Shown in pieces: positions 19,793-30,197 of a stretch of DNA of 45,893 bases. This DNA is from Accumulibacter sp. (GTDB lineage: Bacteria > Pseudomonadota > Gammaproteobacteria > Burkholderiales > Rhodocyclaceae): the NCBI RefSeq assembly GCF_023806565.1, contig NZ_JAMTDV010000115.1:27541-73433 (forward strand), read 5' to 3'. The position numbers and the translations under genes were made by a program. Positions within the stretch are counted from its first letter, which is position 1. Each line of letters begins with the position of its first letter. Below the pieces are notes generated by a model that saw only the letters and a list, made by a program, of their open reading frames with translations, made no database searches and was not told the DNA's origin.

Positions 19793-21031
19793 ATGCCCGT
19801 CAATTACTGTACCCCCGATCCCGATCAGATTTTTCCGGTCGCCGGCGTCCGACTTGGCGTGGCGGAAGCGGGCATTCGCAAGCCGGATCGGCGCGACCTT
19901 ACGCTCGTCTGGCTCGACGCGGGTTGCCGGGTCGCCGGCGTGTTTACCACCAACCGTTTCTGTGCCGCTCCCGTACAGGTTTGTCGCCGCCACCTGGCAT
20001 TGGGAAGCGACATGCGCGCGCTGGTGATCAACACGGGCATTGCCAACGCCGGGACCGGCAGGCAGGGGTGGCTCGCCGCCGTGCAGACCTGCGCCGCCGT
20101 CGGCCAGTTACTGGGAGTCGAAGACCGGCAGGTTCTGCCGTTTTCCACTGGCGTCATCCTCGAACCGCTGCCGGTGGACCGGTTGCTCGCGGGCCTACCC
20201 GCATGCGTAGCCGATCTGGGCGCCGACCATTGGCATGCGGCCGCAAATGCGATCATGACCACCGACACGGTTGCCAAGGCGGCTTCGCGACGCGTCGAAA
20301 TCAACGGCAAGACGGTCACAATCACCGGCATCAGCAAGGGAGCGGGGATGATTCGGCCGAATATGGCGACCATGCTCGCTTTCATTGCCACCGACGCAGG
20401 TATCGGTACGCCCGTCCTGCAGCAACTGCTCACTGAAGCCGCCGAGGAGTCCTTCAACCGCATCACTGTTGACGGCGACACCTCGACCAATGATTCCTTC
20501 GTCCTGATCGCCACCGATCAGGCAGGAATTGCCTTTGCCGAGGCCACGACGCCCGGCTACGAAGCGCTGCGCGCCGCGGTCATTGCCGTCGCCGTCGAGC
20601 TTGCCCAAGCCATCGTGCGCGACGGCGAAGGCGCCAGCAAGTTCATCAGCATCACCGTCGAAGGCGGGAGGAGCAGCGCGGAGTGCAGAAATGTCGGCTA
20701 TGCGATCGCCCACTCCCCGTTGGTGAAGACCGCATTTTTTGCCTCCGATCCCAATCTCGGTCGCATCCTGGCGGCGATCGGCTACGCCGAAGTGGAGGAT
20801 CTTGACGTGGAGCGCGTGCGCATCTGGTTGAGCAGCGCGGGAACCGAGATTCTGGTAGCCGAGCACGGTGGGCGGCCGGCATCCTACCGCGAGGAAGACG
20901 GTGCCGCGATCATGCGCGAGGCCGAGATTGGCGTGCGTATCGCATTGGGACGCGGTACGGCCGATGCCACCGTTTACACTTGTGATCTCTCGCACGGCTA
21001 TGTGCAGATCAATGCCGACTATCGCACGTGA
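19793..21031 (+). CDS. argJ: Bifunctional glutamate N-acetyltransferase / amino-acid acetyltransferase ArgJ
   Basis: ArgJ transfers the acetyl group from N-acetylornithine to glutamate, recycling it in arginine synthesis; bifunctional forms also use acetyl-CoA. The 412-residue precursor has the self-cleavage site in [14 protein letters not shown], where Thr193 becomes the N-terminal nucleophile of the beta chain. The downstream motifs [15 protein letters not shown] and [15 protein letters not shown] are typical. I chose the ATG at 19793 (GTGAGGT upstream) over an earlier in-frame ATG. secA-argJ is a familiar order in betaproteobacteria. Confidence 0.95.
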
Positions 21032-21150
21032 GATGGTCGTCGCAAGAGCAGGGCACGAGACCCCTTACCCCGGCTTGCAAGTGAGAGACGGGCGGTGCGC
21101 ACAACGGGCATGATGCCTAGCCTTGCGGCTGTCTGGAGCCCTCATGTCCG

Positions 21151-21744
21151 TCAAACCCGCTTCAGACGAATCAGTCGAAACCAGCCGGCAACCAGCGCCG
21201 GCTGATCGCTTTCGACGATCAGTTGCGGCGTTTGCTCGAGCAACTCCTCGAGAACCACGTCCAGTCGGGTTGCGATTCGGCGAATCACGGGATTCAGCAG
21301 CCGCCGCACGGGTGCTCGCTGTCCTCGTTGCAGAAACTTGTCGAAGACGAGAAGATTGCCGCCGGGTGCGACCACCCGTGCCGTTTCCCGCAGGCAGGCC
21401 AGTGGATCCGGCAGGACGGCGAGGATCAGATGGAGAATGGCATGATCGAAACTGTGGTCGGAAAATGGCAGACGTTGCGCATCGGCTTGGACGCAGCAGA
21501 AATCGAGTGACGCGGCGCGCGGCACCGCGCGGCGGAGCATGGCACGCGTCAGATCGACGCCCGTATAGCTGTGCTGTGTTGGCAGCAGGGGCAAGTCCAG
21601 GCCGGTGCCAACACCACTGAGCAACACGCGCGCCCGGGCCACCGGCAGCGATTCGAGACTGCGCGAACGCGCCGCACGGGTCGCTGCGTTCAATGCCGCG
21701 TCGTAGAACGGGGCGATCAGCGTGTAGCTCTGGCGAAGGCTCAA
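21151..21744 (-). CDS. Class I SAM-dependent methyltransferase
   Basis: A small-molecule type methyltransferase of about 197 residues. It opens with SLRQSYTLIAPFYDAALNAA, has SAM motif I as VLLSGVGTGLDLPLL, the acidic loop TGVDLTRAML, VQADAQRLPFSDHSFD (motif II) and ETARVVAPGGNLLVFDKF (motif III), like UbiE/phospholipid-type enzymes. The substrate is unknown. No ATG or GTG starts the conserved region; the TTG at 21744, 11 bases past the apaG stop, is the best choice, though the frame is open upstream through apaG. It lies directly downstream of apaG on the same strand. Confidence 0.85.
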   Translation of the reverse strand: MSLRQSYTLIAPFYDAALNAATRAARSRSLESLPVARARVLLSGVGTGLDLPLLPTQHSYTGVDLTRAMLRRAVPRAASLDFCCVQADAQRLPFSDHSFDHAILHLILAVLPDPLACLRETARVVAPGGNLLVFDKFLQRGQRAPVRRLLNPVIRRIATRLDVVLEELLEQTPQLIVESDQPALVAGWFRLIRLKRV

Positions 21745-21754
21745 GGACTGTGGA

Positions 21755-22138
21755 TCAGTGCAGGACGTGCGGAACTGCCAAGGTGAATTCGGGGATTTCC
21801 GCTTCGAACTGCCTGCCGTCGACGGCAGTGAACTGGTAGCTGCCACGCATCGTGCCAACCGGCGTGTCGAGCTGGCAGCCGCTGCTGTACGTAAAGCGCT
21901 CGCCAGGCTGCAGCAAGGGCTGCCGGCCAACGACGCCAAGGCCGCGCACTTCCTGCACCTCGCCGCTGGCGTCGGTGATGATCCAGTGCCGCGAAACCAG
22001 CTGTGCAGGAACGTTTCCGACGTTCTCGATGGTGATCGTGTACGCAAAGACGTAGTTGTCGTTGGCGGGATCCGACTGCTCGGCGATATATTGCGGGAGT
22101 GCGCTGACGGCGATTTCGTATCTCTTGCTCTCGGACAT
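21755..22138 (-). CDS. apaG: ApaG domain protein
   Basis: ApaG (DUF525) is a 127-residue beta-sandwich (FnIII-like) protein, known as CorD in Salmonella; its biochemical role is unsettled. The product starts [18 protein letters not shown] and has the family core [34 protein letters not shown], then [12 protein letters not shown]. The ATG at 22138 gives the standard family length; an ATG 39 bases earlier adds an unconserved Arg-rich tail. It is divergent from rpe, as in many betaproteobacteria. Confidence 0.93.
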
Positions 22139-22284
22139 GTGGACCCAGTGTCGGAACGGTCGGAATCGGCATTCCACACCAATCTGTCGGTGCTGGCAAG
22201 CCTGCCGAGAAATCGAGTGCGGACTCTAAGCGGGAGCAACGTTTCGCGCTAGAATCGACCGCGACATCTTCCGGGGCTTCCCTC

Positions 22285-22974
22285 ATGCACGTCCTTGCTC
22301 CCAGCATCCTCTCGGCCAACTTCGCCAGGCTCGGCGAAGAAGTCGCCAATGTCATTGCGGCCGGCGCAGACTGGATCCACTTTGACGTTATGGACAATCA
22401 TTACGTTCCCAATCTCACCGTCGGCCCACTGGTTTGCGAGGCCATTCGTCCGCTGACCAAGGCGCCAATCGACGTGCACCTGATGGTCAAGCCAGTCGAT
22501 CGCATCGTTCCCGATTTTGCTCGGGCGGGGGCCGACATCATCACCTTTCACCCCGAGGCGTCGGAGCATGTGGATCGCACCCTGGCGCTGATTCGCGAAA
22601 GCGGATGTCAGGCGGGATTGGTATTCAATCCGGCGACACCGCTCGATTATCTCGATTACGTGCTGGACAAGCTCGACATCATTCTGCTGATGAGCGTCAA
22701 TCCCGGTTTCGGTGGGCAGAAATTCATTCCTTCGACACTGCGCAAACTGGCCCGCGTACGCGCCCGCATCGACGCCCACCAGAACGCCGGCGGGCAGCGT
22801 ATCCGGCTCGAAGTGGACGGCGGGGTAAAGGTCGATAACATCGCCGAAATTGCCCGCGCCGGAGCCGACGCTTTCGTTGCCGGCTCTGCGGTTTTCGGCA
22901 GCGGCAGGAACGGCGACCGCAACCGTTACGACAGCATCATCGGGGCACTGCGCGCTGAACTGGAGAAGGCATGA
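22285..22974 (+). CDS. rpe: Ribulose-phosphate 3-epimerase
   Basis: Rpe interconverts ribulose 5-phosphate and xylulose 5-phosphate in the pentose phosphate pathway (and in the Calvin cycle where present). The 229-residue TIM barrel has [13 protein letters not shown] at the start, the metal/active-site segments [14 protein letters not shown] and DVHLMV, then [12 protein letters not shown] and the phosphate-binding [11 protein letters not shown]. It overlaps gph by four bases (ATGA). rpe-gph-trpE is a common proteobacterial order. Confidence 0.96.
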
Positions 22975-23657
22975 TGGCTTCGCCGCTGGCAGTACGCGCC
23001 GTCCTGCTCGATCTCGACGGCACCTTGCTGGACACCGTCCGCGATCTGCAGGCGGCGGCGAACGGCATGCTGCGTGATCTCGGCCGTGCCGAGGTGTCGC
23101 TCGAAGCGATTCGTAGCTATGTCGGCCGTGGCATTCCGAATCTCGTGAAGCGCTTGCTTGCCGGGTCGATGGCGGCCGCCGATGACGCGACGCCGCCGCC
23201 AAAGGAAGCCCTGGACAGCTTCCGGCGGCATTACAGCAGCGAGAATGGTCACAATGCCGCCCCTTTCCCCGGGGTCATGGAAGGACTGGAAGCGCTCAAG
23301 GCGCTTGCCCTGCCCTTGGGAGTGATCACCAACAAGGCCGAGACCTTTACCATACCGCTGCTGCAACGCACCGGACTGCTTCACTTTTTCGACGTAGTCG
23401 TCAGCGGCGACGTCCTGCCGCGTCCGAAACCGGATCCGATGCCTCTGCTTTGGGCTTGCGGTCGCCTCGCGGTCTCACCCATCGACGCGCTGATGATCGG
23501 CGATTCGGTGCACGATTTTCACGCTGGCCGAGCCGCCTGCTGCCATGTGTTTCTGGTGCCCTATGGCTACAACGAAGGACGGGATGTTCGTGAACTTGCC
23601 TGTGATGGTATAGTCTTGACCCTTGCCGAAGCGGCGACGCGCCTGACGCACGCATGA
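22971..23657 (+). CDS. gph: Phosphoglycolate phosphatase
   Basis: Gph dephosphorylates 2-phosphoglycolate, a by-product of DNA 3'-end repair or of Rubisco oxygenation. This HAD-family protein (228 residues) has motif [12 protein letters not shown] with the nucleophile Asp, motif [10 protein letters not shown], motif [15 protein letters not shown] and motif [18 protein letters not shown]. It is coupled to rpe by an ATGA overlap. Its stop in turn overlaps the ATG of a short Trp-containing reading frame preceding trpE. Confidence 0.94.
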
Positions 23658-23734
23658 CCCCCCTTCACTACGAACTGCAGCTGCTCACTGCCCTGGGGCT
23701 GGAGGCTTGGCCCTGGCAAAGCTGGCGCCCGTAG
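23654..23734 (+). CDS. Candidate trp leader peptide
   Basis: A 26-codon frame starts on the ATGA that ends gph and stops with TAG at 23732-23734. It encodes [20 protein letters not shown] then WQSWRP, with three Trp codons within the last eight residues. It sits 80 bases upstream of trpE. The 50 bases after it can form competing stems: GCGCC (23725-23729) with GGCGC (23734-23738), or the overlapping GCGCCC (23725-23730) with GGGCGC (23776-23781), plus CCACGC/GCGTGG (23750-23766). This is the layout of a transcription attenuator that senses charged tRNA-Trp. No ribosome site precedes it, so translation would depend on coupling to gph. Confidence 0.55.
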   Translation: MTPLHYELQLLTALGLEAWPWQSWRP

Positions 23735-23787
23735 GCGCACTCGTCGCCTCCACGCTGCGGGCGTGGGCAGGTCGGGGGCGCTTATTT
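23725..23787 (+). promoter_or_regulatory. Candidate trpE attenuator structures
   Basis: The segment overlapping the end of the Trp-rich peptide can pair locally (23725-23729 with 23734-23738) or with a distal GGGCGC (23776-23781). An independent stem CCACGC/GCGTGG (23750-23755 with 23761-23766) lies between. The distal strand is followed by TTATTT (23782-23787), a weak U-tract. Which fold terminates is inference; an RNA folding calculation is needed. Confidence 0.45.
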
Positions 23788-23813
23788 CTGCAGCGTTTCC
23801 TAGTGGAGTCCCA

Positions 23814-25286
23814 ATGACCGAAGCCTATTTCAATCGCCTGGCCGCGGAAGGCTACAACCGCATCCCGGTGACACTCGAGACCTTTGCCGATCTCGATACC
23901 CCGTTGTCGATCTACCTGAAACTGGCCAACGCGCCCTACAGCTACCTGCTTGAATCGGTACAGGGTGGCGAACGCTTTGGCCGCTATTCGATTATCGGGC
24001 TGACCAGTCCGACACGGATCGTGGTCAATGGCCATCAGGTGCTGGTCCTCAACGGCAACCGCATCGCCGAACGCGAGGACGATACCAACCCGCTCGACTT
24101 CATCGGGAAGTACATGAAGCGCTTTCGTGCGGCTCCGACCACGGGCCTGCCGCGGTTTTGTGGCGGGCTCGTCGGTTGCTTCGGCTACGACACCGTGCGC
24201 TATATCGAAACTCGGCTGACGCGCTCGCAGAAGCCGGACGACCTCGGCATTCCGGACATCGTGCTGCTGCTTTCCGAAGAGATTGCCGTGGTCGATAACC
24301 TGTCCGGCAAGCTCACGCTGGTCGTCTATGCGGAACCGGGCGTTCCCGGTGCGTATCAGAAGGCACAGGCGAGCCTGCGCGAGCTGCTTGCCCGTTTGCG
24401 CGAGCCGGTACGCATTCCGCCCGACGCGCCGCAATCTTCCCAGCCGGCCACCTCGATGTTTGGCGAGTCGCAGTTCCGGCACGCAGTGCTCAAGGCAAAG
24501 CGCTACATCACCGAGGGCGACATCATGCAGGTCGTGCTTTCGCAGCGCATGAGCAAGCCGATGAAGGCCAGCCCGATGGCGCTGTATCGGTCGCTGCGCT
24601 CGCTCAATCCGTCGCCGTACATGTTCTATTTCGACTTCGACGACTTTCATGTGGTCGGCGCTTCGCCGGAAATTCTCGTACGCCTCGAAGGCGACAAGGT
24701 CACCGTTCGACCGATTGCCGGCACTCGCCGGCGCGGCGTTTCCTTCGAGGAAGATCAGGAACTCGCTGCCGAGCTGCTGGCCGACGAAAAGGAGCGGGCA
24801 GAGCACCTCCAGTTGCTCGACCTCGGTCGCAATGACGCCGGACGTGTGGCGCGCGTCGGTACGATCAAGCTGACCGAAAACATGATTGTCGAGAGATACT
24901 CGCACGTCATGCACATTGTCTCGAATGTCGAGGCCACGTTGCGGCCTGGGCTGGACGCGCTCGACGTGCTCAAGGCGACTTTCCCGGCCGGCACGGTTTC
25001 CGGAGCGCCCAAGGTCCGTGCTATGGAGATCATCGACGAACTCGAGCCGGTGAAACGGGGCATTTATGCCGGAGCCGTGGGTTATCTCGGCTTCAACGGG
25101 GACATGGATCTGGCCATCGCGATCCGCACCGCAATCATCAAGGACGGCCAGTTGCACGTGCAGGCCGGTGCCGGCATCGTCGCCGATTCGGATCCGGCCT
25201 GCGAATGGCAGGAAACCCAGAACAAGGCGCTCGCCGTCCTGCGTGCCGCCGAACTCGCCGAGCATGGACTCGACACGCGTTGGTGA
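23814..25286 (+). CDS. trpE: Anthranilate synthase component I
   Basis: TrpE makes anthranilate from chorismate with ammonia delivered by TrpG, the first step of tryptophan synthesis. The 490-residue protein has the Trp-binding feedback motif in YSYLLESVQGGERFGRYS, the chorismate-binding domain with GDIMQVVLSQRM, VRPIAGTRRRG, DLGRNDAGRVA and FPAGTVSGAPKVRAMEII. The ATG at 23814 has GGAG upstream. The usual followers trpG, trpD and trpC are missing: the next gene is pcm on the other strand, so the trp operon is split. A candidate leader peptide lies upstream. Confidence 0.96.
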   Translation: MTEAYFNRLAAEGYNRIPVTLETFADLDTPLSIYLKLANAPYSYLLESVQGGERFGRYSIIGLTSPTRIVVNGHQVLVLNGNRIAEREDDTNPLDFIGKYMKRFRAAPTTGLPRFCGGLVGCFGYDTVRYIETRLTRSQKPDDLGIPDIVLLLSEEIAVVDNLSGKLTLVVYAEPGVPGAYQKAQASLRELLARLREPVRIPPDAPQSSQPATSMFGESQFRHAVLKAKRYITEGDIMQVVLSQRMSKPMKASPMALYRSLRSLNPSPYMFYFDFDDFHVVGASPEILVRLEGDKVTVRPIAGTRRRGVSFEEDQELAAELLADEKERAEHLQLLDLGRNDAGRVARVGTIKLTENMIVERYSHVMHIVSNVEATLRPGLDALDVLKATFPAGTVSGAPKVRAMEIIDELEPVKRGIYAGAVGYLGFNGDMDLAIAIRTAIIKDGQLHVQAGAGIVADSDPACEWQETQNKALAVLRAAELAEHGLDTRW

Positions 25287-25322
25287 GAAGGCGCGGAATG
25301 AGGAGATTCTTCCCCGACTCGA

Positions 25323-25994
25323 TCAATTAGCCGGTGATCCGGTCAATGGCACGAAAATGACCGGCAGAATCGACCTTTCGCTGAGGCGACCATACTCGTC
25401 CTTGTTGATCTTCAGCAGATCCTGTCCGAAGTGGCGGCCGCCGACCGGAATGATCAGCGTCCCCCCGGGCTTGAGCTGTTCGATCAATGCGCGCGGCACG
25501 CTCGGCGCAGCGGCGGTGACCACAATCGCATCGTAGGGGGCGTGCTCCGGCCAGCCCAGATGTCCGTTCCCCGTACACACTTCCACGTTGTCGTAGCCGA
25601 GCTGCTGCAGGCGCTGGCTCGCCTGCGCGGCGAGCGTGTCGATGATTTCCAGCGAGTACACCTGTTTGACCAGTCGCGACAGGATCGCCGCCTGGTAGCC
25701 GGAGCCCGTGCCCACTTCGAGCACCACGTCTTCCTCCTCGGGCTGGATCAGGGCAGTCATCAAGGCGACGATATACGGTTGCGAGATGGTCTGTCCATGC
25801 CCGATCGGCAGCGGGTGGTTGGCATAGGCGCTCTCGGCCAGTTCCGCCGGGACAAAGGCATGCCGCGGCACTGTGCGCAGAACCTGCAGCACTCGTTGCC
25901 CAAGCGCTGCGCAGCCGGTCAGGTGTGCGGTCGCGCGTACCTCGTCCTGCACTTCTTCGAGCAGCCGATGCAGCTCCCGGCTTTCGACCGTCAC
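25323..25994 (-). CDS. pcm: Protein-L-isoaspartate O-methyltransferase
   Basis: Pcm methylates isoaspartyl residues in aged proteins so they can revert to aspartate. The 223-residue protein has the family segments VPRHAFVPAELAESAYANHP, PIGHGQTISQPYIVALM, the SAM motif VLEVGTGSGYQAAIL, and LKPGGTLIIPVG. The start is the GTG at 25994 with AGGAAAG upstream. It lies downstream of the zinc-ribbon gene on the same strand, with a 16-base palindrome in the gap, and converges on trpE with about 36 bases between them. Confidence 0.95.
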   Translation of the reverse strand: MTVESRELHRLLEEVQDEVRATAHLTGCAALGQRVLQVLRTVPRHAFVPAELAESAYANHPLPIGHGQTISQPYIVALMTALIQPEEEDVVLEVGTGSGYQAAILSRLVKQVYSLEIIDTLAAQASQRLQQLGYDNVEVCTGNGHLGWPEHAPYDAIVVTAAAPSVPRALIEQLKPGGTLIIPVGGRHFGQDLLKINKDEYGRLSERSILPVIFVPLTGSPAN

Positions 25995-26044
25995 CTTCTG
26001 CTTTCCTCAGCATTGTTGGCACGTGCCGCGTGCGCTGGATGGAG

Positions 26045-26060
26045 CGACACCGCGGTGTCG
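26045..26060. repeat. 16-base perfect palindrome upstream of pcm
   Basis: CGACACCGCGGTGTCG is identical to its reverse complement. It sits two bases beyond the stop codon of the zinc-ribbon gene and 51 bases upstream of the pcm start, in a position suitable for a dimeric regulator of pcm or for a short hairpin (6-bp stem, CGCG loop). No T-run follows on the minus strand. Confidence 0.55.
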
Positions 26061-26061
26061 A

Positions 26062-26565
26062 TCACCTTGACCAATGCACCCGCAGCAACATTTGCTCGGG
26101 GTTGTAATGAAATTCGAGTTCGCCCCCGTAAGCACGGTGCACGGCTTCGCCGATGGTCCGTGCCAGATGAATGTCGGTGGTGCTGACATTGACTCCGCTT
26201 TCCGCCTCGTCGATCGACATCACCCGTTGCAGGGGATGCTCGCTACGCTGACGCTCGGCCTCGTTGTATACCAGATGGACAATCTCTGGCCGATGCGTTT
26301 GCAGGAAATCGCCTTCGAGAAAAACGAAACCGGCCGGATAATGATCGCGCACACGCTGGCAGGCAGGGCAGCTCGCCCGATGTGCATCGGCTGTGGCGGC
26401 GATTCCCCATTGCCAGCGCCCGGCGTGGTAAACGGCTCCGCAGTGTTCACAGACGGTCGGTTCGGGCAGTTTCCCCTTGGCCATGTAGCTGTCGTGCTCG
26501 GTCTCGTGCAGCAGGCGATCGTGGCGAACCGGTCGAAAGCCGGGAAGTATGGATCTGCTATTCAT
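26062..26565 (-). CDS. Zinc-ribbon protein, BCAM0308-like
   Basis: A 167-residue cytoplasmic protein with two CxxC knuckles (C39/C42 in VCEHCGAVY and C66/C69 in SCPACQRVRDHYPAG), probably a zinc ribbon. It continues with FVFLEGDFLQTHRPEIVHLV and ends with GGELEFHYNPEQMLLRVHWSR. From memory this matches a conserved proteobacterial family called BCAM0308, whose function is unknown. The ATG at 26565 has a good AGGAGC ribosome site; the frame is open further up but unconserved. The palindrome before pcm follows its stop. Confidence 0.82.
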   Translation of the reverse strand: MNSRSILPGFRPVRHDRLLHETEHDSYMAKGKLPEPTVCEHCGAVYHAGRWQWGIAATADAHRASCPACQRVRDHYPAGFVFLEGDFLQTHRPEIVHLVYNEAERQRSEHPLQRVMSIDEAESGVNVSTTDIHLARTIGEAVHRAYGGELEFHYNPEQMLLRVHWSR

Positions 26566-26738
26566 GACAAAGCTCCTGAAAAATCGTACAGAGGGATACA
26601 CGAGGGAAATCGTGCATCAATACTTCATGATAGGTCGTGCGTCGCCGTTTGCCAGTAGAAAAGTCAGGCGGGACATGGAAATGGAGCATCGCATGTACTA
26701 CAGTGATGGCAATGACCGAGCAGCGTAGGAGCAGGATC

Positions 26739-27239
26739 ATGGCGGACCGATCACAAGCAGGAATCGCTGCCGACCTTACGCTTCGCTCGCAATCCTTTCT
26801 TCACAACGGAACGATTCCGCCTCGTCACACCTGCGATGGCGCCAACATTTCGCCGCCGCTTGCCTGGGTCGACGCACCCGCGGGCACGAAGAGCTTCGTG
26901 CTGATCGTCGATGACCCGGATGCGCCCGATCCGGCGGCGCCGCGGATGACCTGGGTGCACTGGGTGCTCTACAACATCCCGCCACAGGTCGCGAGCCTGG
27001 CCGAGGGAGTTGCCATACTACCGCCGGGGACCCTGGCGGGACGCAACGACTGGCAGCGCGTCGACTACGGAGGACCCTGTCCCCCGGTCGGTACGCACCG
27101 CTATTTCCACAAGCTCTTTGCGCTCGACGTCGTACTGCCCGACCTTGAGCACCCGACCAAGGCCCGGCTGGAGGGCGCCATGCAAGGTCACGTTCTGGCC
27201 AGGTGCGAGCTTGTCGGGCTGTACCGGCGGCAGCGCTGA
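26739..27239 (+). CDS. YbhB/YbcL (PEBP, Raf-kinase-inhibitor-like) family protein
   Basis: PEBP-fold proteins bind phosphorylated or anionic ligands; the bacterial YbhB/YbcL members have no settled role. The 166-residue protein has IPPRHTCDGANISPPLAW, the ligand-site motif VDDPDAPDP, WVHWVLYNIP, and YGGPCPPVGTHRYFHKLFAL, all hallmark segments. It has no signal peptide (start MADRSQAGIA behind AGGAG), so it is probably cytoplasmic. It converges with the exported protein downstream. Confidence 0.92.
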   Translation: MADRSQAGIAADLTLRSQSFLHNGTIPPRHTCDGANISPPLAWVDAPAGTKSFVLIVDDPDAPDPAAPRMTWVHWVLYNIPPQVASLAEGVAILPPGTLAGRNDWQRVDYGGPCPPVGTHRYFHKLFALDVVLPDLEHPTKARLEGAMQGHVLARCELVGLYRRQR

Positions 27240-27344
27240 AAGCGTCTGCCGCGGTCGTCGCGAGCACGCCCAGCTGCGGTGGGAATGCCGTCGGACTGAG
27301 TGGTCGGTGTCAGCCGGCGCTTGCGCCGCTTGCTGCTCGACCGA

Positions 27345-27749
27345 CTACTCGGTTTCCCAATAGAAATACAGATCGCGGCGACCGCGCTGGCCAATGGCAA
27401 ATGACTTGCTGAGCGTCTTCCCCTTGAACTCCGCGTCAATGCGGTATTGCCCTGGGCCCAGCGTGGCAAAAAAGAAGGGACCCGGTGACCGGGTCACCAG
27501 TACCTTCTCCCCGCTCGAGTGGTAGATGCTGATTCCGACGTCGGCCAGATACGAGCCGCTTCCCTTCAGCGCAAAAACCACTTGCAGGTTATGCGCCTGG
27601 CGCATGGCCTCGATTTCGATCGGGTCGTCGTCGCCGATTCTCCCACTGGCGTGCGCTATCTCGGGAGCGGGTGACGCTGCTCTTGCGGCAAGAGCAACTG
27701 TCAGCAGCGCGCACGCGCCAAGCCGGAATAATCCGTGACGTAGTTTCAT
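27345..27749 (-). CDS. Exported hypothetical protein
   Basis: A 134-residue protein with a signal peptide (MKLRHGLFRLGACALLTVAL, then ARAAS) and a beta-rich mature domain: YLADVGISIYHSSGEKVL, then PFFFATLGPGQYRIDAEFKG, resembling a small carboxypeptidase-regulatory or Ig-like fold. I set the start at the ATG at 27749 because GAGGAG lies six bases upstream. Probably periplasmic or surface-exposed; function unknown. It lies just downstream of lon on the same strand. Confidence 0.78.
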   Translation of the reverse strand: MKLRHGLFRLGACALLTVALAARAASPAPEIAHASGRIGDDDPIEIEAMRQAHNLQVVFALKGSGSYLADVGISIYHSSGEKVLVTRSPGPFFFATLGPGQYRIDAEFKGKTLSKSFAIGQRGRRDLYFYWETE

Positions 27750-27824
27750 CTCCATCTCCTCGAATGGCATCGCCCGGCGTGAAAATTTCCAGCCGCTCAA
27801 GACGACCGGGAGCGCTGCGGGCGC

Positions 27825-30197
27825 TCACTGCGGCATGGCATGATGTACGGCATCATCAACATTTTCCAGGAAGACGAACTCGAGTCGCTCTTTCGCCTCC
27901 GGCGGTACTTCCTCGAGGTCCCGGCGGTTCCGGGCCGGCAGCAGTACGCGCTGGATTCCGGCGCGCATCGCGGCAAGTACCTTGTCCTTGATGCCGCCGA
28001 CCGGCAGTACGAGTCCACGCAGGCTGACTTCGCCAGTCATCGCCGTATCATTGCGTACCGGCCGATCGACGAAGAGCGATGCCAATGCGATGAACATCGC
28101 CACACCGGCACTCGGACCATCCTTTGGGATCGCTCCTGCCGGCACATGCACATGCACGCTGGTCTTCTCGAAGCTGTGCGGGTCGATCCCGAGGCTGGTG
28201 GCACGAGTCTTTACCAGAGTCAGTGCCGCCTGCGCCGATTCCTTCATGACATCACCCAGTTGCCCGGTGAGGATCAGCCCGCCGTCGCCCGCCGTACGGC
28301 TTGCTTCGATGAACAGGATGTCGCCGCCGATCGGCGTCCACGCCAAGCCGGTGGCCACCCCGGCAAGACCAGTACGCAGCGCGACCTCGTTGTCGTACTT
28401 CACCGGTCCGAGAATTGCCGCGAGGTCCGCTTCGTCGACGTGCATCGACGCGATAGTGCCTTCGGCGATATTGACCGCCGCCCGCCGACAAACTGCTCCA
28501 ATTTCGCGTTCGAGCGAACGCACTCCGGCTTCCCGCGTGTAATCGCGGATGATCGCCGCCAGCGCCGGCGCCGAGAACTCGATCTGCCCTTCCTTGAGGC
28601 CGTTCTGCGTGATCTGCCGCGCGACCAGATAACGCCGCGCAATCTCGCGCTTTTCCTCCTGCGTGTAACCTGGTAGCTGGATGATCTCCATGCGGTCACG
28701 CAGCGGGCCCGGAATGTTGTCGAGCACGTTTGCCGTGGTGATGAACAGCATTCGTGACAGATCGAAAGGCAAGGCCAGATAGTTGTCACGGAAAGTATTG
28801 TTCTGTTCGGGGTCGAGCACCTCGAGCAGCGCCGCGGACGGGTCGCCCTGGATGCCGGCACCAAGCTTGTCGATCTCGTCGAGCATCATTACGCAGCCGC
28901 GCGAGCCGGCTTTGCGGATCGCCTGGATGATGTTGCCGGGCAGGGCACCAATATAGGTGCGGCGATGGCCGCGGATTTCCGCCTCATCATGGACGCCGCC
29001 GAGCGATGCCCGGACGAACTTTCTGCCCAGCGCCCGGGCGATCGACTGCCCGAGCGAGGTCTTGCCCACTCCGGGAGGCCCGACGAAACACAGGATCGGC
29101 CCGTGCCCGCCCGGGTTGAGCTTGCGTACCGCAAGAAACTCGATGATTCGCTTCTTGACCTGGTCGAGGCCGAAGTGATCAGCGTCGAGGATGCGGCGCG
29201 CTTCGGCAATCTCTATGCGATCGGGTTCGGGTTCCTTCCACGGCAATTCGATCAACCAGTCGAGATAGGCGCGCACCATCGAGTACTCTGCCGAACCGTC
29301 CGCCATACGTTCCAGACGCTTGAGCTCCTTGTTTGCCTGGCTTGCCACCTCTTCGGGCATTTCCGCATCGGTGATGGCCTTGCGCAAGGTATCGATCTCC
29401 ACGCCGCTGCCGCCTTCGCCTTCGCCGAGCTCCTTCTGGATCGACCTCAACTGCTCACGCAGGAGGTATTCGCGCTGTCGCTGATCGATGTTGGCCTTGG
29501 TTCGCTCGTCGAGCTCGCGCGACAGGCGCAACACCTCGAGACGCGCCTGCAGGCAGTCGACCACCAGGTCGAGCCGCCGCTGCAGGTCGACCGTCTCGAG
29601 GATCCGCTGCCGGTCGGCAATCTTGAATTCGGAAACGCTGGCTATGAGGTCGGCGAGGGATCCCGCCTGCCCCAGGCTCTTCACCGCAGCCAGCAACTCC
29701 TGTGAAACCTGCGGCAGGAACTGCAGGACCTCCAGCGCGCGTTCCCGGAGCTGGATCACGCGCGCTTCGATCTGGCTGTCGGTCGCGTCGGGCTCGTCGA
29801 TTCGTCCGATACGCGCCACCGGAAAAGGATAGCCGGAGAGGTAATCGACGATGCGAAAACGCTGCAGTCCCTGGCAGACGATGACATGGCTGCCATCCGG
29901 CAAGGTCACGTAGCGCAGGATGTTGGCCAGCGTTCCGACCAGGCAGAGATCGTCGGGTTCCGGTACCTCGACCTCGGCATTGCGCTGGAGGAGAATCCCC
30001 ACCGGACGCTCGGTCTTGACTGCCTGCTGCGCCGCCAGCATCGACTGCTCACGGCCGATGGTCAGCGGCAGGATCATTCCTGGAAACAGAACCACGTTGC
30101 GAATCGGCACGATGACCATCGCGTCGTCTGGAATCACGAGCACACCATCGCTATCGTCCCGGCGTCCTCGGCTCGGCTCGCTCTTGTCGGTTGCCAT
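27825..30197 (-). CDS. lon: ATP-dependent protease Lon
   Basis: Lon unfolds and degrades damaged and regulatory proteins. At 790 residues it has the N-terminal LON substrate domain (about 25-220), a coiled-coil, the AAA+ module with Walker A GPPGVGKT at 373-380 and Walker B MMLDEIDK, and the C-terminal protease domain with the Ser-Lys pair: Ser696 in PKDGPSAG and Lys739 in GGIKDK. hsp20 lies 12 bases upstream on the same strand, so the two probably share a stress-responsive transcript. Confidence 0.97.

Follow-up and report, generated by a model that had tools for sequence, protein, structure and literature searches.

The window, a stretch of 45,893 nucleotides from Accumulibacter sp., carries rpe, gph and trpE in consecutive order, as judged from its open reading frames and from matches to NCBIfam models. 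On the forward strand, gph (positions 22971-23657) was identified as phosphoglycolate phosphatase and trpE (23814-25286) by TIGR00564, both above cut-off, and rpe and argJ were likewise confirmed by NCBIfam. Direct reading of the sequence between gph and trpE and comparison with relatives revealed a leader frame at 23654-23734 of the same strand, consisting of 26 codons and the stop TAG (23732-23734), which no NCBIfam model matched. The leader ATG overlaps the gph stop as ATGA, and codons 19, 21 and 24, within 23708-23725, are Trp codons (23708-23710, 23714-23716 and 23723-23725). The distance from the leader stop to the start of trpE, the putative regulated gene, is 79 nt and includes a TTATTT tract at 23782-23787. 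Both the three-Trp frame on the gph stop, directly before trpE, and the tract following it had been reported in the initial annotation, and both were found as described. On its 3' side trpE is adjoined by an ORF on the opposite strand (25323-25994), presumably resembling a protein-L-isoaspartate methyltransferase; the next trp gene thus does not lie directly downstream.

All 28 genomes of the genus carried TrpE, as did 144 of 150 sampled from the family and 272 of 300 sampled from the order. Upstream DNA was read at 29 loci from the genus, at 86 from elsewhere in the family and at 60 from outside it (34 families). A leader was defined as an ORF no more than 200 nt from trpE having at least two Trp in six residues near its end. 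One locus that was not trpE (L002) was dropped, as were four false leader calls (L115, L120, L158 and L162), reducing the number of leaders from 125 to 121. Such leaders were present at 12 of 29 loci of the genus (0.7 expected from dinucleotide shuffles, 1 on the reverse strand), 65 of 86 loci in the rest of the family (2.0 expected, 5 on the reverse strand) and 44 of 59 in other families of the order (2.0 expected, 1 on the reverse strand). Looser ORF tests found a leader at 85/115 and 51/60 loci, counts which include chance frames. Trp-rich leaders thus recur before trpE far above chance in the genus, the family and other families, and the comparison shows, at the level of sequence, a short frame rich in Trp codons just upstream of trpE. 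The leaders frequently end in EAWPWRPWRR or similar in the family, and in WRWRR, WRWWR and similar outside it. Elsewhere in the class, 38 loci from 35 families outside the order were analysed, of which 9 pass the two-Trp rule, a raw count that excludes L273 and L293, whose leader calls fall inside gph; frames with a single Trp codon were noticed by eye among these loci.

The initial annotation had proposed that the leader is translated by coupling to gph rather than from a ribosome site of its own. The start on the gph stop agrees with this, as does a 4-base overlap between leader and gph at 41 of the 111 leader loci with gph nearby, including all 12 of the genus, but coupling is perhaps not the sole route. 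A putative -10 hexamer, TATAGT, lies on the forward strand in the 3' end of gph (23609-23614), with the transcript expected to start near 23621. The pattern GATG[C/G]TATAGT, chosen by eye (GATGCGCTAGTAT or GATGGGCTACTAT), occurs at 87 of 112 leader loci, compared with 26 of 51 others, and is present beyond the family too. The motif uses the codon ATA, which accounts for 4 of 151 Ile codons in six ORFs of the window. A strict promoter scan of 21000-25600 found no promoter in the 3' end of gph. Since the motif is also coding sequence, and the pattern was picked by eye and its occurrences are raw counts, we regard a dedicated trpE transcript as a lead and not as a result.

Reading of the gap sequences first drew our attention to a complementarity between the first codons of the leader and the ribosome-binding region of trpE. 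Over the 121 leaders the mean pairing energy was -20.2 kcal/mol, compared with -15.4 kcal/mol when partners were swapped, although these rows are not independent. For the one-per-family tests we used the 19 of the 34 families having a locus with at least two clustered Trp codons. With one locus from each, the pairing of leader positions +0 to +33 with the 32 nt before trpE gave z -8.7, and none of 4000 permutations was as good. Segments overlapping +0 to +33 shared the signal in the 19 families, and no such signal was found there further upstream, in the Trp region, after the stop or in trpE. When 243 and 214 segment pairs were scanned without bias, the helix region ranked first (z -6.8 for 46 genera and -7.5 for 19 families), and full-segment permutation gave z -10.0 and -8.7, respectively. 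GC-matched comparison yielded z -9.1 for the 46 genera, -6.7 for the 19 families and -5.6 for the 38 class loci outside the order, and within-locus shuffles -12.4, -11.1 and -6.7. Gap loci outside the genus that do not pass the two-Trp rule, 21 in number, showed the same pairing (z -7.1).

The Trp-region segment showed no excess pairing with the ribosome-binding site by shuffles and a marginal z of -2.9 in the family scan, where a weaker pairing (z -2.9) was also seen between the region separating the 5' strand of the helix (strand A) from the Trp codons and the region after the stop. When 40 class loci were scanned, including two from the own order (L276 and L295) that were used only here, the best partner of the 32 nt before trpE was the stretch 105-70 nt upstream (z -8.4). 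A segment inside trpE was null as a partner in the class loci, and one 260-225 nt upstream was borderline (p 0.048, shuffle z -0.2). With a two-Trp leader at only 9 of the 38 class loci, the evidence there is stronger for the helix than for the Trp codons. An intended negative control, the gph ribosome-binding site against the 3' end of rpe (105-72 nt upstream), turned out positive, with z -5.1 by permutation and -6.7 by shuffles; GC-matched, it fell to z -3.0 (p 0.004), compared with -9.1 and -6.7 for trpE. Inspected by eye, the control signal of the 22 strongest loci was mostly a fixed complementarity of two rpe coding motifs, together with repeats at L033 and L113, two loci in which long repeats or hairpins were observed between rpe and gph.

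These comparisons show that the first ~30 nt of the leader, often including its start codon, are complementary to the ribosome-binding region of trpE, and that both strands of the helix change together between lineages. A base stem joining the leader to the SD of the regulated gene is thus found across lineages; within Accumulibacter alone its conservation is suggestive, with z -1.5 and p 0.07 by permutation (n=12) and z -3.1 by shuffles, 1 of 12 loci reaching p ≤0.05.

In the window, strand A (CUUCACUACGAACUGCAG, 23663-23680, forward strand) covers leader codons 4-9, at a position conserved in relatives, and is complementary to strand D (CUGCAGCGUUUCCUAGUGGAG, 23788-23808, forward strand), which holds the trpE SD GUGGAG (23803-23808). 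The helix consists of CUUCACUA paired with UAGUGGAG, the part holding the SD, followed by GAA with UUC and CUGCAG with CUGCAG. The pair probability of UAGUGGAG (23801-23808) with 23663-23670 was 0.34-0.89, depending on the stretch folded, and that of the CUGCAG part was 0.05-0.13. Strand D reads UAGUGG here, where the genus mostly has UUGUGG, and the change is matched by CACUA in strand A, which is CCACAA in five relatives. An SD-locking attenuator nevertheless has weaker support in the window itself than across lineages, and the Trp codons have been lost in its sister species.

To relate the helix to translation of the leader, ribosomes were modelled as masks on the 121 leaders, and the cost of opening the trpE ribosome-binding site was computed. 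With a mask at the leader start, this cost fell in the family from 11.9 to 5.8 kcal/mol and in other families from 13.5 to 5.5 kcal/mol, but in the genus only from 8.1 to 6.1 kcal/mol. Where the first Trp codon lies within 36 nt of the start (36 leaders), a ribosome stalled on it lowered the cost from 12.95 to 7.03 kcal/mol, with a drop of at least 2 in 29 of 36; in the same leaders the cost was 10.38 kcal/mol with the ribosome at the last Trp codon and 11.87 at the stop, so that in the model a stall at the first Trp codon could distinguish starved from fed cells. In the 85 leaders with the first Trp codon beyond +36, a single stall changed the cost merely from 11.67 to 11.07 kcal/mol, compared with 7.07 for a queue of two. 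By a cruder measure on all 121 leaders, a single stall acts in 5, a queue in 43 and a ribosome at the start in 62, and we rejected the idea that in long leaders a single stalled ribosome opens the site by itself. In the window, whose first Trp codon is at +54, no modelled state lowers the cost appreciably: it is 5.2 kcal/mol for the free leader, 5.7 with a ribosome at the start, 7.0 at the first Trp codon, 7.0 with a queue and 5.1 at the stop.

From these results, a hypothesis may be put forward which we consider probable: trpE is under a ribosome-mediated translational attenuator, in which the leader start locks the SD and ribosomes on the leader open it. Given that the trpE SD, and frequently the leader start codon too, is enclosed in the helix, translation of the leader should open trpE. 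With ample Trp-tRNA, ribosomes would run through the leader and leave, the helix would close and trpE would stay untranslated; with scarce Trp-tRNA, they would dwell on the leader, keeping strand A unpaired and allowing trpE to be translated. One stalled ribosome would suffice, according to the model, when the first Trp codon is near the start, and a queued second one would be needed in long leaders like that of the window. Coupling to gph would initiate translation of the leader, which may in addition start on a transcript begun inside the gph 3' end. The response to Trp and its sign are inferred from the Trp codons and by analogy with trpE attenuation in Pseudomonas putida, which belongs to the same class and concerns the same gene as the leader described here: Olekhnovich and Gussin reportedly described in 2001 that trpE and trpGDC of this bacterium are attenuated by Trp, and that decoding of Trp codons controls trpE.

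The weak modelled response in the window raises the alternative that the attenuator is real across the class but decaying in Accumulibacter, with trpE here expressed mainly by coupling or read-through and responding little to Trp. Several observations point in this direction. The two-Trp rule is failed by 17 of the 29 genus loci; in five of them (L003, L004, L007, L016 and L027) the leader gap has disappeared, gph directly overlapping the start of trpE. At L005, L006, L008 and L009, remnant leaders begin on the gph stop but have a truncated end or have lost most of their Trp codons. The window species is the only leader-bearer in a clade of 8 rows (support 94), some of the other 7 having remnants, and its leader has Gln in place of Arg after W-P-W, as 1 of 39 A-W-P-W leaders. 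In a trpE tree of the 29 genus loci and 5 outgroups, the latter picked among leader-bearers, the leader needs 5 state changes, of which well-supported branches force only one, and by the count of changes gain and loss are indistinguishable. Against decay, the window still has its three Trp codons, the leader start on ATGA and the helix over the SD, the last with a matching change in both strands, and we consider it unlikely that this leader is such a relic.

The translational attenuator could also act through the transcript. If the helix stopped translation of trpE, Rho might cut short the untranslated RNA, and the output would then be read as transcript level; such Rho-dependent polarity fits the SD helix and the absence of canonical terminators, and we rate it as quite improbable.

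Equally concerned with transcription is the design favoured in the initial annotation, a classical attenuator in which a terminator near 23790 competes with an antiterminator and a stall at the Trp codons favours read-through. Its ingredients are in place: the Trp codons, the TTATTT tract and the complementary segments, 23725-23730 being able to pair with 23734-23738 or with 23776-23781. However, the proposed stems are not conserved. Between the stop region and the segment 45-30 nt before trpE, no conserved pairing was seen in the genus (p 0.50, n=12) and none in other families (p 0.34, n=19), with a marginal result in the family (p 0.04, n=46). The region from the leader to trpE did not fold more stably than its shuffles (z -0.57 and -0.45). 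Around the leader stop, a local hairpin was weakly supported, and this solely in other families (p 0.0075 and 0.017, n=19). Using a rule that detects the E. coli trp terminator, we found canonical terminators between leader and trpE at 0 of 12 loci of the genus (1.2 by shuffles) and, outside it, at 8 of 69 (5.4) and 3 of 40 (3.7), close to the shuffle rate. With a laxer U-tail (4 U of 8), the counts were 3 of 12 in the genus, compared with 4.7 in shuffles, and 26 of 69 and 13 of 40 outside it, compared with 16.1 and 8.1, a mild excess of weak terminator-like sites that speaks for this design. In the window gap, no terminator-like site was reported by a simple scan of 21000-25600, and an Rfam search of 20000-30000 with E up to 5 gave no match there. 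Of the hallmarks of a classical trp attenuator, neither a terminator, nor conserved competing stems, nor an Rfam match was found. Moreover, the conserved 3' arm extends into the trpE SD. We therefore rejected both the proposed stems as a regulatory structure and a canonical terminator before trpE, and consider a classical attenuator decidedly unlikely; what stands of the trp attenuator reading is the Trp-codon leader starting on the gph stop, and what the data do not support is its terminator and antiterminator part.

A further variant, in which the nascent A-W-P-W-R peptide itself helps to stall the ribosome, seems highly improbable, because A-W-P-W is only one leader type and others carry W-R-W-R, W-R-G-W-R and the like, even though the residues are strongly kept among 39 distinct A-W-P-W leaders (40 loci, 20 groups): Ala never varies while four codons encode it, and Arg, written with all four CGN codons, is present in 38 of 39 (raw counts that include codon bias and shared descent), so that the peptide may itself be selected.

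The translational attenuator may be compared with several known systems. Attenuation of trp is the textbook case of ribosome-controlled transcription termination, and the present leader resembles E. coli trpL in having Trp codons directly before trpE; trpL, however, combines a canonical terminator with weak pairing of the leader start and the trpE ribosome-binding site (-6.4 kcal/mol), and the leader described here shows the reverse. In erm and in the anti-TRAP gene of B. subtilis (rtpA), a ribosome on a leader frame decides on access to a downstream SD; erm responds to macrolides, and in rtpA it is a ribosome at the leader stop that blocks the SD, whereas here the stop is 79 nt away from trpE and the block would be a long-range helix. 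Among the papers listed by literature searches, with few subscription journals among the sources, no title or abstract beginning describes a betaproteobacterial trpE leader or a trp leader that sequesters the SD.

By analogy, the trpE leader would work as a leader-peptide attenuator whose output is most like that of the LEU element. Upstream of leuA in Actinobacteria, the run of regulatory codons in this element is described as pairing with the SD, together with a pseudoknot (PMC1262725). Shared with it are a leader frame in which codons for the sensed amino acid abound, a base stem that joins this leader to the SD, and a terminator that is not needed (PMC1262725); the clustered Trp codons of a classical trp attenuator are present here as well. 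The amino acid and the phylum are different, and in the LEU element the codon run is in the stem (PMC1262725), whereas the trpE leader pairs with the SD through its start and has its Trp codons in the loop. A LEU-type stem of regulatory codons was not found here, the Trp-region segment showing no excess over shuffles and a marginal signal in the family scan.

We tentatively propose, as a broader view that we hold to be possible but somewhat less than even in probability, that SD-sequestering translational Trp attenuation is ancestral across the class of beta- and gammaproteobacteria, the E. coli terminator type being a derived exception, and that the leader initiation site acts as the lock of trpE, with trpE output a measure of how long ribosomes dwell on the leader. 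If this is true, many relatives of E. coli solve Trp control at translation, with the first codons of the leader locking the trpE ribosome-binding site. Accumulibacter offers a natural series of leader losses, and culturable Rhodocyclaceae, among them Azospira and Dechloromonas, make the helix accessible to compensatory mutations.

Two minor observations concern the leader ends. The string UGG-CGA-UGG-CG, with CGA being an uncommon Arg codon, recurs in distant families, for example at L126, L144, L153 and L166. An SD-like GGAGG stands immediately 5' of the first Trp codon in the window (23701-23712) and in A-W-P-W leaders of the family; the Glu codon at this site is GAG in 33 of 33 Glu-bearing A-W-P-W leaders, and the GGAGG is possibly a pause site or a competitor of strand A.
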